Below are positions 8,821-13,301 of a stretch of DNA of 13,672 nt, one piece after another. The notes below the pieces were generated by a model. That model searched no databases. It saw only the letters and a list, made by a program, of their open reading frames with translations, and was not told the origin of the DNA. Source of the DNA: Acidobacteriota bacterium (lineage in GTDB: Bacteria; Acidobacteriota; UBA6911); NCBI GenBank assembly GCA_031254095.1, contig JAIRVC010000088.1:1-13672 (forward strand), read 5' to 3'. The position numbers and the translations under genes were made by a program. Each line of letters opens with the position of its first letter. Positions within the stretch are counted from its first letter, which is position 1.

Positions 8821-8825
8821 CTTGT

Positions 8826-8950
8826 AAGGAACCTCTAAAAACTCCAAAATTAAGGCTTGCGACTGGGAGAAAAGCGAAGTTTGCATTTATGTAAACGAGC
8901 ATTTTGGATCGGCCGTATAACGCAGAGTTTGGGGGTTTTAGAGGTTCCTT
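8826..8950. repeat. Palindromic element, copy 1 (about 121-125 bp, long terminal inverted arms)
   Basis: AAGGAACCTCTAAAA (8826-8840) is the perfect reverse complement of 8936-8950. Past one mismatch (8841/8935) pairing resumes to 8848/8928. The interior shares blocks with copy 2 at 13173-13296: AAGGCTTGCGACTG, AAAAGCG, CATTTTG and TAACGCAGAGTTTGGGG. A small inner hairpin forms from GTTTGC (8879-8884) and GTAAAC (8891-8896). No long frame lies inside. It sits between the propeller stop and the nitroreductase. It could be a MITE-like element, a structured RNA or a terminator. Confidence 0.8.
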
Positions 8951-8956
8951 TTAATA

Positions 8957-8976
8957 TTTATTAGTGTTTCCCTGGG
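8957..8976 (-). repeat. Copy of the short dispersed motif
   Basis: The minus strand reads GGGAAACACTAATAAA, like the GGAAACRCTGATTAA motif found at 432-455, 2291-2338 and 9545-9568. It lies between palindromic copy 1 and the nitroreductase ribosome site (GGGAGGA, 8974-8980). Confidence 0.3.
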
Positions 8977-8983
8977 AGGAATT

Positions 8984-9496
8984 ATGGATTTTGAAAAGCT
9001 TGCGGCGGCGCGCTATAGCGTCCGAGCGTACAAAAATGACCCGGTGCCCGATGAAATTCTGAACAGGATTCTTGATGCCGCACGAAACGCTCCGACGGCG
9101 GGCAACAAGCAGCCTTTCAGAATTATCGTGATTCGCACCGCCGGACGGCAGGAGGAACTTGGCCGCGTCTACGGCCGCGAATGGTTCACGCAGGCCCCGC
9201 TGGTTATCGCGATCTGCGCGGTTACGGACGAAGCATGGGTAAGGAAATTCGATGACAAATGCTACTCCTTCGTGGACGCGGCGATTGTTTTCGACCACCT
9301 GATTCTGGCCGCGGCCGATCTTGGTCTTGGAACATGCTGGATTGCCGCGTTCGATCCGGCTGCCGCCCGTGAAGTTCTCGTTTTGCCGGAAGGCGTCGAA
9401 CCGGTCGCTTTCACGCCGCTGGGATATGCGGCCGATGAGCTTAAACCGAAACAGCGAAAGGAACAGGCAGTTTTAATAAAATACGAGCACTGGTAG
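8984..9496 (+). CDS. Small nitroreductase-family FMN oxidoreductase
   Basis: A 170-residue protein of the nitroreductase superfamily, cytosolic FMN enzymes that use NAD(P)H to reduce nitro groups, quinones, flavins or related compounds. The N-terminus RYSVRAYKNDPV (10-21) with its arginines is the usual FMN phosphate-binding start. ARNAPTAGNKQPF supplies the next FMN contact, and the C-terminal half has LAAADLGLGTCWIAAF, typical of the family. It is compact compared with NfsB-type enzymes (about 215), matching the short group common in anaerobes. GGGAGGA just before the ATG confirms the start. It stands alone: palindromic copy 1 separates it from the propeller gene, and 105 bp separate it from hydC. 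The physiological substrate cannot be predicted. Confidence 0.88.
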   Translation: MDFEKLAAARYSVRAYKNDPVPDEILNRILDAARNAPTAGNKQPFRIIVIRTAGRQEELGRVYGREWFTQAPLVIAICAVTDEAWVRKFDDKCYSFVDAAIVFDHLILAAADLGLGTCWIAAFDPAAAREVLVLPEGVEPVAFTPLGYAADELKPKQRKEQAVLIKYEHW

Positions 9497-9544
9497 AAGT
9501 GGTATCGCGGCTTGGGGCTGTTTGAAATTTGAAAACAGGGATGC

Positions 9545-9568
9545 CCTTGAGGAAATACTGATTAACCC
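9545..9568 (+). repeat. Copy of the short dispersed motif upstream of the hydrogenase operon
   Basis: CTTGAGGAAATACTGATTAA (from 9546) resembles the sequences at 432-455 (minus), 2291-2338 and 8957-8976 (minus). It lies about 35 nt before the hydC start, so it may be in the operon leader or promoter region. No clear -35/-10 pair could be assigned here. Confidence 0.35.
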
Positions 9569-9601
9569 GGATGCTTAAAATACAGAAAGGTAGCGAGAAG
9601 A

Positions 9602-10111
9602 TTGAAAACGGAATTTACGGCACAAACCGAAATCACCCCGCAGTTGGAAAAAAAGATCGTTGCCATTGCCGAACGGTACCATAAAGAACCGCATCAGCTC
9701 ATGCGGATTTTATTGGATATCCAGAAGGTGACGTCAAACGCGATCCCCCGGGAGGTCGCAATCGTGGTCAGCCGCGTGACCGGCATTCCGGAAGCAAAAC
9801 TTTACGGATTCGTCAGCTTTTACGCGATGATTTCCCCGGCGCCCCGCGGGAAATACGTCATTCGTATGTGTGAAAGCGCTCCCTGCCACGTAACCGGCGC
9901 CGTGGCGGTCATGGAGTCAATTATAAAAACGCTGGGCATACAGCCGGGAGAGACCAGCAGGGACGGCCGCTTCACACTTGAATATTGCCAATGCCTTGGC
10001 GTTTGCGAATCTTCTCCGGCCATACTGGTTAACGACATGATCTACAAAAACCTCACGCCCGGTCGCGCCGCGACCCTGATAGAGGATTACATGAGAGGGG
10101 ATGTAAGTTAA
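9602..10111 (+). CDS. hydC: NuoE-like [2Fe-2S] subunit of trimeric [FeFe] hydrogenase
   Basis: A 169-residue homologue of NuoE (24 kDa complex I subunit), called HydC in trimeric hydrogenases. It relays electrons between the FMN/NADH subunit and the rest of the enzyme. The thioredoxin-like domain binds one [2Fe-2S] cluster through Cys90, Cys95 (CESAPC), Cys131 and Cys135 (CLGVC). Cys129 is extra and precedes the second pair. The helical N-terminus with LMRILLDIQKV (33-43) and YGFVSFYAM is typical. The start is a TTG preceded by AGAAAGG about 11 nt away; no earlier in-frame start follows the stop at 9563. Its TAA shares one base with the hydB ATG, so the two are translationally coupled. Confidence 0.93.
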   Translation: MKTEFTAQTEITPQLEKKIVAIAERYHKEPHQLMRILLDIQKVTSNAIPREVAIVVSRVTGIPEAKLYGFVSFYAMISPAPRGKYVIRMCESAPCHVTGAVAVMESIIKTLGIQPGETSRDGRFTLEYCQCLGVCESSPAILVNDMIYKNLTPGRAATLIEDYMRGDVS

Positions 10112-11370
10112 TGCTACAGGAAACCAGAATTGTGCTGCGGAATGTCGGCGAGATCAATCCGGTCAGCGTGGAGGATTATCGCAAAAGGGGCGGATACGAG
10201 TCCCTGCGCAAGGCTTTAACCATGCCGCCGGAAGACGTGATTGCCGAGATCGAAAAATCCAGGCTGCGCGGTCGCGGCGGCGCGGGATTCCCAACGGCCA
10301 GAAAATGGAGCTTTGTCCTTAAAGCGGAATCCGAACAAAAATATGTGATCTGCAACGCGGATGAAGGGGAACCGGGCACGAATAAAGACCGCATTGTGCT
10401 CTCCAATGATCCGAACAGCGTTTTTGAGGGTATGGCCATCGCCGCGTGGGCGGTGGGCGCGGACAGAGGCTTCCTTTATCTGCGTTTCGAATACCCCTAC
10501 GTTTTTCCCATTCTTGAACAGGCGCTGCAAAATGCCCGTGACGCCGGCTGCCTGGGCAAAAACATTTTTGGAACCGATTTTAACTTCGATATCACTGTGG
10601 TTTCCGGCGGCGGCGCTTATGTCTGCGGAGAGGAAACCGCGTTGATTGAGTCCATTGAGGGCAATCGCGGAGAGCCGCGCTTTAAGCCGCCATATCCGGG
10701 CATATCGGGGCTATACGGAAAACCCACGGTGGTCAACAACGTTGAGACGCTTGCGAATATCCCTGTCATTATGGACAAGGGCGGCGAGTGGTTCAGCAAG
10801 ACAGGAGTGCCTTCATGCACGGGAACGAAGGTGTTTACCCTCTGCGGAAATATTGCGCAAAAGGGCGTATTTGAATATCCCATGGGCACCAATCTGCGGG
10901 ATATTTTTGAAACGCACGGCGGCGTGAAAGACAACAGGGATCTGCGCGGCTTCATGCTGGGCGGCCAATCGGGCAACCTTATAAACGCGTCGCAAATTGA
11001 TCTGCCGATGGATATAGATTCCTGCCAGCAGGCGGAGTCCGTGCTCGGCACCGGCACGATCATGGTTATAGACGACTACACGGAAATTCTGGATATCGTT
11101 GAAAACATCATGAAATTCTTCATCGAGGAAAGCTGCGGAAAATGCACCCCTTGCCGGGAAGGCAATATCCGCATCTATGAGGTCATTCAGCGAATCAACC
11201 GCGGCGAAGGCAAGATGGACGACATGATTCTACTGGAGGAACTTGCCGAAACCATGAATATAGCCTCGCTCTGCGGATTGGGACAGAATTCATCGGTGGC
11301 GGTCATTACGAGTATGCATAATTTCCGTGAAGATTATCTCAAGGCTATTGAAAGGGGAAGGCGGGCGTGA
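10111..11370 (+). CDS. hydB: NuoF-like FMN/NADH-binding subunit of [FeFe] hydrogenase (short form)
   Basis: A 419-residue NuoF-type flavoprotein that oxidises or reduces NAD(H) at FMN and passes electrons to Fe-S clusters. Key parts are the NADH/FMN loop LRGRGGAGFPTARKW (52-66), CNADEGEPGTNKDR (81-94), GGGAYVCGEETALIESIEG (167-185), an SLBB region, and one [4Fe-4S] site from Cys342, Cys345, Cys348 (SCGKCTPC) and Cys388 (SLCGLGQ). HydB of the bifurcating Thermotoga enzyme is over 600 residues, with an extra N-terminal [2Fe-2S] domain and a C-terminal two-cluster ferredoxin domain. Both are absent here, so it is nearer NuoF in size. An AGAGGGG precedes the ATG. The last 4 bp overlap hydA (GTGA). 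Confidence 0.94.
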   Translation: MLQETRIVLRNVGEINPVSVEDYRKRGGYESLRKALTMPPEDVIAEIEKSRLRGRGGAGFPTARKWSFVLKAESEQKYVICNADEGEPGTNKDRIVLSNDPNSVFEGMAIAAWAVGADRGFLYLRFEYPYVFPILEQALQNARDAGCLGKNIFGTDFNFDITVVSGGGAYVCGEETALIESIEGNRGEPRFKPPYPGISGLYGKPTVVNNVETLANIPVIMDKGGEWFSKTGVPSCTGTKVFTLCGNIAQKGVFEYPMGTNLRDIFETHGGVKDNRDLRGFMLGGQSGNLINASQIDLPMDIDSCQQAESVLGTGTIMVIDDYTEILDIVENIMKFFIEESCGKCTPCREGNIRIYEVIQRINRGEGKMDDMILLEELAETMNIASLCGLGQNSSVAVITSMHNFREDYLKAIERGRRA

Positions 11371-13097
11371 GCAAAGTAAAACTGACTATTGACGGGCTCC
11401 CCGTCGAAATAGAAGAAGGCGCGACGATTCTGCGGGCGGCGGATGAACTTGATATCTATATTCCTACGCTCTGCTACCATCCGGATCAAAACGTGAAGGC
11501 GAACTGCCGCATCTGTGTCGTGGAGGTTGTGGGCATGAAACTCCTGGTTCCCGCCTGCTCCTATCCCGCAACGGAAGGCATGGCCGTTCTTACACATTCC
11601 CAGCGCGTGCGTACGGCTCGCAGAAACATACTGGAGCTGATCCTTGCCCGCCACGCGCAGGACTGCCTGCATTGCGACCGCAGCGGTTTCTGCGAGTTGC
11701 AGAAGGTTTCGGAGGAGATGCATTTTCTGCGCACGCCGCGCTATCCATATGTGGCGCGTTCCGACTACTGGGACGATTCATCTCCTTCAATTGTGCGCAA
11801 TTCGCAGAAGTGCGTCGCCTGCGGACGGTGTGAATACGTTTGCTCAAATATACAAACGGTACACGCCCTGTCCAAGGTCGGGCGCGGTTTTGAGGTCAAC
11901 TTTGAACCGGCCTACGGCAAAAAGCTCGGCGACAGCGTTTGCATCAACTGCGGACAATGTATTCAGGCCTGCCCCACGGCCGCTTTGACCATTTACGATT
12001 ACACTTTGCGCGTCTGGCGCGCTTTTGCCGACCCGCAAAAAACTGTCGTCGCGCAGGTCGCGCCCGCTGTGCGCATCACCCTGGCGGAGGCATTGGGCGA
12101 GGCGCCCGGAACCATCAGCACAGGCCGCCTGGTTACCGCGTTGAAGCGCGTCGGTTTTGACGTCGTATTCGACACCGATTTCACCGCCGACCTGACTATC
12201 ATGGAAGAAGGCACGGAACTGCTTGGCCGCATTAATAACGGCGGCGTCCTGCCTATGATTACTTCCTGTTCACCCGGCTGGATTAAATTCTGCGAGACTT
12301 ATTACCCGGATCTCATTCCAAATCTTTCGACCTGTAAATCTCCGCAGGCCATGTTCGGCGCGCTGATTAAAACTTTCTACGCAAAGCAGATTCGCAAGGT
12401 TCCAAGCGATATTTTCAGCGTTTCTATCATGCCCTGCACCGCGAAGAAATTCGAAGCCCAGCGTCCGGAGATGGGGCGCAACGGATACAGGGATGTGGAC
12501 GTGGTTATATCCGTACAGGAAATCGCGCGCATGATCCGCAGCGCGGGCATCAATTTTTCCAACCTTCCGGAGACGCCCTTCGATAGTCCTTTTGGCCTGG
12601 GCTCAGGCGCGGGCGAAATCTTCGGCGCGACCGGCGGCGTCATGGAAGCGGCGCTGCGCACCGTTTATGAAATCGTTACAGGCAAGGAGCTTGACAGCCT
12701 CGACTTTGAATCGGTGCGCGGCTTTGAAGGCATCAAGGAGGCGTCCGTAATGGTTGGCGATATAAAGGTGAAAGTCGCCGTTGCGCACGGGCTTGGAAAC
12801 GCCCGCAAGCTGATGGACGCCATACGCGCCAAAGAGGCGGACTACCACTTCATAGAAATCATGGCCTGTCCTGGCGGTTGCATCGGCGGCGGCGGCAATC
12901 CCATCAAGAACTGGCGCAAAATGGGGCCGCGGCTCGAAGCGGTCTATCGCGAGGACAAGAACATGCCGCTGCGCAAATCCCACGAAAATCCTTATGTAAA
13001 AAAGCTGTATGAAGATTTCCTTGGCGAGCCGAACAGCCATAAATGTCACGAACTGCTTCACACGCGCTATGTTGACCGGAGTTATTTACTGCGGTAG
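11367..13097 (+). CDS. hydA: [FeFe] hydrogenase catalytic subunit (H-cluster)
   Basis: A 576-residue catalytic subunit for H2 production or uptake. Modules in order: N-terminal [2Fe-2S] (Cys36, 47, 50, 64); a His-Cys3 [4Fe-4S] site (His96, Cys100, 103, 109); two ferredoxin-type [4Fe-4S] clusters (Cys149/152/155/159 and 192/195/198/202); and the H domain with TSCSPGW (299-305), MPCTAKK (355-361) and MACPGGCIGGGG (499-510). This is the layout and length of Clostridium CpI (574), with no C-terminal [2Fe-2S] extension. Proton-path residues fit a +2 offset from CpI: E281, E284, R288, C301, S321. The L1 motif has Ser302 where TSCCP enzymes have the second Cys. The start is GTG overlapping the hydB stop, with AAAGGGGAAGG upstream. 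Maturases HydE/F/G are not in this window. Expected location is cytosolic: no signal peptide. Confidence 0.95.
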   Translation: MSKVKLTIDGLPVEIEEGATILRAADELDIYIPTLCYHPDQNVKANCRICVVEVVGMKLLVPACSYPATEGMAVLTHSQRVRTARRNILELILARHAQDCLHCDRSGFCELQKVSEEMHFLRTPRYPYVARSDYWDDSSPSIVRNSQKCVACGRCEYVCSNIQTVHALSKVGRGFEVNFEPAYGKKLGDSVCINCGQCIQACPTAALTIYDYTLRVWRAFADPQKTVVAQVAPAVRITLAEALGEAPGTISTGRLVTALKRVGFDVVFDTDFTADLTIMEEGTELLGRINNGGVLPMITSCSPGWIKFCETYYPDLIPNLSTCKSPQAMFGALIKTFYAKQIRKVPSDIFSVSIMPCTAKKFEAQRPEMGRNGYRDVDVVISVQEIARMIRSAGINFSNLPETPFDSPFGLGSGAGEIFGATGGVMEAALRTVYEIVTGKELDSLDFESVRGFEGIKEASVMVGDIKVKVAVAHGLGNARKLMDAIRAKEADYHFIEIMACPGGCIGGGGNPIKNWRKMGPRLEAVYREDKNMPLRKSHENPYVKKLYEDFLGEPNSHKCHELLHTRYVDRSYLLR

Positions 13098-13115
13098 CCG
13101 ACGGTTACGGAAACG

Positions 13116-13155
13116 TTAATTGCGTGCGGGATAATATTGTCTCGCACGCAATTAA
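13116..13155 (+). terminator. Palindromic terminator hairpin after the hydrogenase operon
   Basis: TTAATTGCGTGCG (13116-13128) is perfectly complementary to 13143-13155, extended by three more pairs (one wobble) around the 8 nt loop TAATATTG. It begins 18 nt after the hydA stop. Flanking A/T bases on both sides would let it act in either direction, although the following T run is short. Confidence 0.7.
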
Positions 13156-13172
13156 TCAGCGGGGAACCTCTG

Positions 13173-13296
13173 GGCAACCTCCGAAAACCCCAAAATCAAG
13201 GCTTGCGACTGAGGCAAAAGCGGAGTTTACATATTTAGGTAAATGATCATTTTGCCGCAAGGAGTAACGCAGAGTTTGGGGTTTTCGGAGGTTGCC
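13173..13296. repeat. Palindromic element, copy 2 (124 bp, 22 bp perfect inverted ends)
   Basis: Positions 13173-13194 and 13275-13296 are perfect 22 bp inverted repeats (outer end GGCAACCTCCGAAAA). The centre folds further: CTTGC (13202-13206) with GCAAG (13257-13261), GGCAAAA (13213-13219) with TTTTGCC (13250-13256), then a small inner stem. TCTG occurs on both sides (13169-13172 and 13297-13300), as a target duplication might. It lies between the hydA terminator and the Uma2 gene, 5 nt from the Uma2 stop. See copy 1 at 8826-8950. Confidence 0.85.
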
Positions 13297-13301
13297 TCTG
13301 G

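Follow-up and report, generated by a model that had tools for sequence, protein, structure and literature searches.

Bacterial MITEs such as MITEAba12 are described, in passages of PMC6382973 and PMC10969869, as short non-coding elements with terminal inverted repeats and a target duplication, which occur in high copy number and mostly outside reading frames. REPINs likewise form hairpins and reach high copy numbers, and an excerpt of PMC3116915 reports that compensatory changes on both sides of the hairpin are frequent among them. For imperfect palindromes, excerpts of PMC7202029 (template-switch mutation at quasipalindromes of E. coli) and PMC8794818 (template switching that maintains RNA hairpins) describe multi-base changes that match the other arm and bring the palindrome closer to perfection. 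The elements analyzed in this work are alike to all three systems in these respects. Two of them lie in a 13,672-nt stretch of DNA, referred to here as the window, on contig JAIRVC010000088.1 of an Acidobacteriota MAG of 2.09 Mb. We consider it quite probable that both are copies of one family of non-autonomous DNA transposons (MITEs) with a palindromic interior, and that the excess complementarity between the arms of single copies in this family results from template-switch correction of quasipalindromes.

An earlier note on the window had placed two palindromic elements at 8828-8948 and 13173-13296. Both had been located correctly, and copy 1 is best extended by one base on each side. The features of the two copies in window coordinates are the following.

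8827..8949, + strand: copy 1, a palindromic MITE of subfamily A, 123 bp (from the sequence, the inverted-repeat listing and genome matches)
8827..8848, + strand: left terminal inverted repeat of copy 1 (inverted-repeat listing)
8928..8949, + strand: right terminal inverted repeat of copy 1, with two non-Watson-Crick places (inverted-repeat listing and sequence)
8823..8826, no strand: TGTA, left half of the decayed 4-bp target duplication of copy 1, matching at 3 of 4 positions (sequence and the 4-bp rule of the family)
8950..8953, no strand: TTTA, right half of the same decayed duplication (sequence and the 4-bp rule of the family)
13173..13296, + strand: copy 2, a palindromic MITE of subfamily B, 124 bp (from the sequence, the inverted-repeat listing and genome matches)
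13173..13197, + strand: left terminal inverted repeat of copy 2 (inverted-repeat listing)
13272..13296, + strand: right terminal inverted repeat of copy 2 (inverted-repeat listing)
13169..13172, no strand: TCTG, left target duplication of copy 2, exact (sequence)
13297..13300, no strand: TCTG, right target duplication of copy 2, exact (sequence)
13162..13172, + strand: GGGAACCTCTG, an arm-like relic overlapping the left TCTG of copy 2 (by eye, with similar solitary arms elsewhere)

Judging from its sequence, the relic GGGAACCTCTG appears to be the site into which copy 2 inserted. The neighbours of copy 1 are genes for a beta-propeller protein and a nitroreductase; those of copy 2 are the [FeFe]-hydrogenase gene and a Uma2-like gene. 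The direct repeat formed by the two copies is the longest listed in the window (77% over 78 nt, with a second stretch of 90% over 29 nt), and their two inverted repeats top the window's inverted-repeat list, with arms that are 96% and 91% complementary. None of 200 dinucleotide shuffles reached the DNA hairpin stability of either copy (z = -4.6 and -9.8).

The surroundings of copy 2 have features of their own. Between the hydrogenase gene, which it follows immediately, and the nearby start of copy 2, another inverted repeat is present at 13116-13155, TTAATTGCGTGCGGGATAAT / ATTGTCTCGCACGCAATTAA (90% complementary), perhaps a terminator. The region 9602-13097 of this Acidobacteriota contig contains three adjacent genes encoding a multi-subunit [FeFe]-hydrogenase, with Pfam assignments to 2Fe-2S thioredoxin-like, NuoF-like and hydrogenase large subunits. 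For a protein encoded on the same contig, the best relatives carrying an organism name, ranked below matches without one, were P0022 (74%) and P0023 (85%), both from Acidobacteriota MAGs.

Two base pairs had been noted as differing between the copies while remaining paired within each, and both were read correctly: 8836 T/8940 A corresponds to 13182 C/13287 G, and 8837 A/8939 T to 13183 G/13286 C. These differences mostly define subfamilies A and B and thus do not represent two independent compensations in place. In the two window copies, just one compensated change is not shared with other copies, namely the outermost pair of copy 1 (A-T, as against G-C in the family), and alone it is weak evidence. 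The C-G pair 13175/13294, which had been regarded as additional in copy 2, occupies the place of the G-C pair 8829/8947 of copy 1. The earlier statement that each arm matches its partner holds incompletely, as the outer arm of copy 1 has two non-Watson-Crick places (A.G at 8841/8935 and T.G at 8843/8933).

The family as a whole is characterized by a length of about 123 bp, terminal inverted repeats of 22-25 bp (GGGAACCTCTAAAAACTCC in subfamily A and GGCAACCTCCGAAAACCCC in subfamily B), a palindromic interior and AT-rich target duplications of 4 bp. A sequence-only search model was built from 31 copies and applied with up to 150 candidates scored per genome. The source MAG, which on the earlier reading should hold further copies, yielded 136 matches; there were at least 150 in one congener (G004), at least 149 in the Prevotellaceae MAG Cd354_bin66 (G080), 41 in the Tannerella MAG Iy174_bin48 (G081), and none in each of eight other congeners. 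Nucleotide searches of the source MAG (G000), with 40 candidates scored each and opposite-strand matches of the palindrome counted in, returned at least 42 matches to copy 1 and at least 56 to copy 2. The arm pattern at no more than one mismatch gave 139 matches, compared with 8 for the reversed-pattern control. Both ends were recognizable in 153 of 165 copies, which were kept as full; their lengths of 107-136 bp leave no room for a transposase gene, and 140 of them lie outside any mechanical reading frame of at least 100 codons.

Identical 4-bp sequences were present on both flanks of 65 of the 153 full copies, while 2000 within-genome shuffles gave a mean of 7.0 and a maximum of 17. Flanks matching over 3 bp or 5 bp were counted in 8 and 3 copies, moving the left boundary gave 0-8, and the commonest duplication was TAAA (19/65). 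An exact target duplication with long matching ends is a mark of DDE transposons. Movement would be carried out by a cut-and-paste transposase, and the consensus sequences suggest that subfamilies A and B are distinct and went through separate amplifications. The same data bear on whether the elements could be REPINs, that is, palindromic REP pairs moved by RAYT, a single-strand HUH enzyme. Although the elements are high-copy hairpins outside long reading frames and share with REPINs the common compensatory changes mentioned in PMC3116915, their exact 4-bp duplication and matching ends of 22-25 bp do not fit, and the ends read GGGAACC or GGCAACC instead of the GTAG/CGTC tags given in a portion of PMC3733652; we regard the chance of this reading as close to negligible.

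Aberrant forms were also observed. Five loci of the congener (L138, L140, L144, L150 and L162) are miniatures of 62-66 bp that keep both arms and have lost most of the interior, and three loci of the Prevotellaceae MAG (L068, L069 and L197) are 134-bp variants in which the apical segment is enlarged and partly duplicated (AGTAAATGAGCGCAGTAAATGAGCA in L197). Solitary arms of 11-16 bp without the element interior, possibly deletion or excision relics, occur in both the source MAG and the congener (L139, L147, L148, L161 and window 13162-13172), and the one at L148 was seen by eye to overlap the end of a reading frame at its stop codon.

The search for an autonomous partner covered four transposase Pfam families in fragmentary MAGs; a partner transposase gene would be bounded by GGGAACCTCTAAAAAC. 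The assessment of IS families and of the rules for their ends drew on general knowledge. None of the PF01609 loci examined in G000, G004 and G080, and none of the PF05598, PF13546 and PF13701 loci examined in these and G081, has the ends of the family in the right orientation. An automated end scan detected no inverted ends at nine transposase loci, yet it missed the ends of an IS1380-type gene in the source MAG (G000:C313) that are visible by eye, and it is therefore a weak test; the ends of that gene are different, TAGTCCTAAA. A transposase reading frame of the Prevotellaceae MAG (G080:C53) was rejected as a partner since the solitary arm beyond the frame points the wrong way. Twelve solitary arms with other inward sequence were read by eye, and no recognizable transposase was found there.

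Diverged versions of the element occur in one of nine other congeners and in the two Bacteroidota MAGs, which, judging from their isolate names, may originate from termite guts. A 34-nt pattern matched 21 stretches in named genome contigs, a set that may omit the window's own genome, and these comprised 20 in the Prevotellaceae MAG and one in the Tannerella MAG. Copy 2 matched only the source MAG and the congener among 80 genomes consisting of its own and relatives, the exact 17-nt arm was found only in the Prevotellaceae MAG among 393 genomes of its order, and viral contigs contained no match to the 22-nt arm pattern. A TonB receptor encoded on an element-bearing contig of the Prevotellaceae MAG has its relatives in Bacteroidota, which argues, for this contig at least, against a contamination by Acidobacteriota DNA.

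The consensus sequences of A and B are 84% identical to each other, 88-89% identical to that of the Prevotellaceae family (P), and 69-75% identical to that of the congener's family (G4). Subfamily B is nearer to the Prevotellaceae version (89%) than to that of the congener (69%), which points to transfer across phyla. In an approximate, midpoint-rooted tree, 59 copies of the source MAG formed one clade (support 0.81), as did 39 of 40 congener copies (support 0.66), whereas the 52 Prevotellaceae copies formed no single clade, their largest pure clade containing 37, and had the source clade among them; a joint clade combined the 59 source copies with six Prevotellaceae copies and one Tannerella copy (support 0.81). 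As the simplest reading of these sequences, the source elements would derive from a lineage that they share with the Bacteroidota elements and not from that of the congener, followed by amplification in each genome. Interior bases in AAAAGCG.AG.T and GTAAA..TTTT, including unpaired positions, are invariant in 31 aligned copies from the source MAG, the congener and the Prevotellaceae MAG, and this conserved core may be a putative binding site needed for transposition.

To test for compensation within copies, each left arm was paired with the right arm of its own copy or of another copy in the family, using 5000 shuffles. The tests included 151 copies (A 42, B 17, P 52, G4 40), the two Tannerella copies being excluded, and a filtered set of 143 from which eight badly aligned rows had been removed. 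In the filtered set there were 59 double complementary changes, 36 of them distinct, compared with 18.6 in the shuffles (69 vs 20.7 before filtering). The numbers of shuffles reaching the observed paired cells and double changes were 0 and 0 in A, 0 and 0 in B, 0 and 7 in P, and 3 and 3 in G4, and sliding the partner by 1-3 columns left 0-7 double changes per family, compared with 11-18 in register. Before filtering, at least one compensated pair was present in 15 of 42 copies of A, 6 of 17 of B, 11 of 52 of P and 18 of 40 of G4, counts in which the five compensated pairs of the misaligned G4 row L138 are artefacts.

Within-copy compensation is therefore real but partial. Further copies with uncompensated arm changes, which the earlier note had regarded as evidence against its reading, are indeed common: the filtered set has 511 one-sided cells vs the 59 compensated ones, and at least one outer pair is broken in 111 of 143 copies. 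That objection applies in part, and the excess of one-sided changes indicates that correction is rare or slow. Double changes that a single copy has to itself in both arms number only four, and so much of the signal was inherited within subfamilies; pair 36/87 of L045, for example, is common to L149 and L141. This raises the question of whether the compensation is wholly inherited, with source copies having changed both ends jointly because the transposase must recognize both, and the present copies reflecting subfamily membership plus ordinary decay. Such a history would account for the subfamily-wide arm differences of the window copies, the paired intermediates CTCTG/CAGAG in B (L066 and L091) and the compensated pairs that groups of copies have in common (G4 41/82 and 57/66), as well as for the small number of private double changes. 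On the other hand, even these four exceed the 0.37 expected, compensation is also seen in inner-stem pairs distant from the ends (36/87 and 37/86 in L034, 48/74 in L043), and the inner arms of four A copies fit their own other arm and not that of the family. We therefore consider wholly inherited compensation unlikely.

Evidence for templating comes from these four copies. The consensus inner arms of subfamily A, GCGGCCGGGACAAAA and TTTTGGATCGGCCGC, do not fully match, while in L034, L041, L045 and L242 all 15 inner positions of the right arm complement the left arm of the same copy; the remaining 38 of the 42 A copies have 2-7 inner-arm mismatches. The left arms carry the variants GGGAC, GTGAC, GAGAC and GGGAC, in that order, and each right arm follows its own left arm, taking one of three forms (TCCC, TCAC or TCTC). 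Runs of at least 11 own-arm matches were absent from B, P and G4. The right-arm sequence GATC is also present in some G4 copies, which suggests that GATC is older and the left arm was the template, a polarity that we infer for all four block cases. The four perfect inner arms could also represent an older, perfect subfamily, an interpretation that still needs matched double changes in L034 and L041.

Compensation in excess of the shuffles and matches along the whole inner arm are both observed directly, and a replication mechanism may be the simplest account of them. The imperfect palindrome would form a hairpin during replication, and one arm would now and then be rewritten with the other as the template, that is, by quasipalindrome correction through template switching. 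A block of one arm that matches its own other arm is what such correction predicts according to parts of PMC7202029 and PMC8794818. Template switching should also leave loop inversions, and none was noticed in the copies inspected by eye, which for family P were part of the set. The suggestion in the earlier note of a non-autonomous mobile element with arm-to-arm conversion is thus supported by the target duplications, the copy number and the self-complementary inner arms of the four subfamily A copies.

The earlier note had also offered selection for a folded RNA, in which case the element would be transcribed and selection would act on its fold, which might serve as a hairpin in regulation or processing. 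RNA tolerates a G.U intermediate and not A.C, whereas on DNA the two are mirror images. Across the four families, distinct one-sided events comprised 78 G.U and 69 A.C (p = 0.51); by cells the numbers were 161 and 191, a count in which shared events weigh heavily. Family A leans toward G.U (54 vs 26 cells, 31 vs 19 distinct), and this, together with the stable fold and the interior that is invariant even at unpaired positions, agrees with a functional RNA, but family P leans the opposite way (36 G.U vs 113 A.C cells). Orientation was counted for 90 of the 140 copies, those flanked on each side by a reading frame of at least 100 codons. The two frames were codirectional around 48 copies, 28 of them sense and 20 of them antisense (p = 0.31); they were convergent around another 21 and divergent around 21. 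The window had no Rfam match at gathering score, and the rewritten copies are without the family's internal loop. RNAalifold on a mixed alignment of 87 copies gave a poor consensus (-4.6 kcal/mol) and was discarded in favor of single-sequence folds of the family consensuses. Nothing in these sequences consistently indicates a transcript, and a functional RNA, set aside on the G.U/A.C balance and the orientation, appears very improbable.

Compensatory changes in hairpins are often read as strong evidence of functional RNA, and this family displays the signal without a consistent RNA signature; it is thus a warning against relying on covariation alone. It also documents a small, high-copy mobile element in two phyla and provides a dense natural dataset on template-switch correction in uncultured bacteria. 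We tentatively suggest, at somewhat less than even confidence, that a MITE family crossed between Acidobacteriota and Bacteroidota while keeping its interior, unpaired bases included, conserved between the phyla, and that its hundreds of copies form a natural record of template-switch arm correction whose rates and direction can be read from sequence alone.

In the literature, as far as titles and the openings of abstracts tell, neither this element family nor template-switch compensation in bacterial MITEs was found. On present evidence the family is new in the sense of being unrecognized by the comparisons made here, which did not include ISfinder, and the mechanism is known from elsewhere. 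As an observation, compensation in bacterial palindromes is not new either, since the REPIN changes in the cited part of PMC3116915 precede it. Compared with described bacterial MITEs, no parental insertion sequence was found for the window family, and its interior is palindromic and partly conserved between phyla. Unlike REPINs, it duplicates 4 bp of its target and is bounded by long terminal inverted repeats, with no REP tag seen at its ends. The studies of template switching concern reporter assays (PMC7202029) and RNA genes (PMC8794818) in the portions cited, whereas the window family is dispersed mobile DNA that lacks a consistent RNA signature. Overall, this is a mobile element of an ordinary kind whose host range is unusual and in which copying from arm to arm has left a record that is clear but partial.
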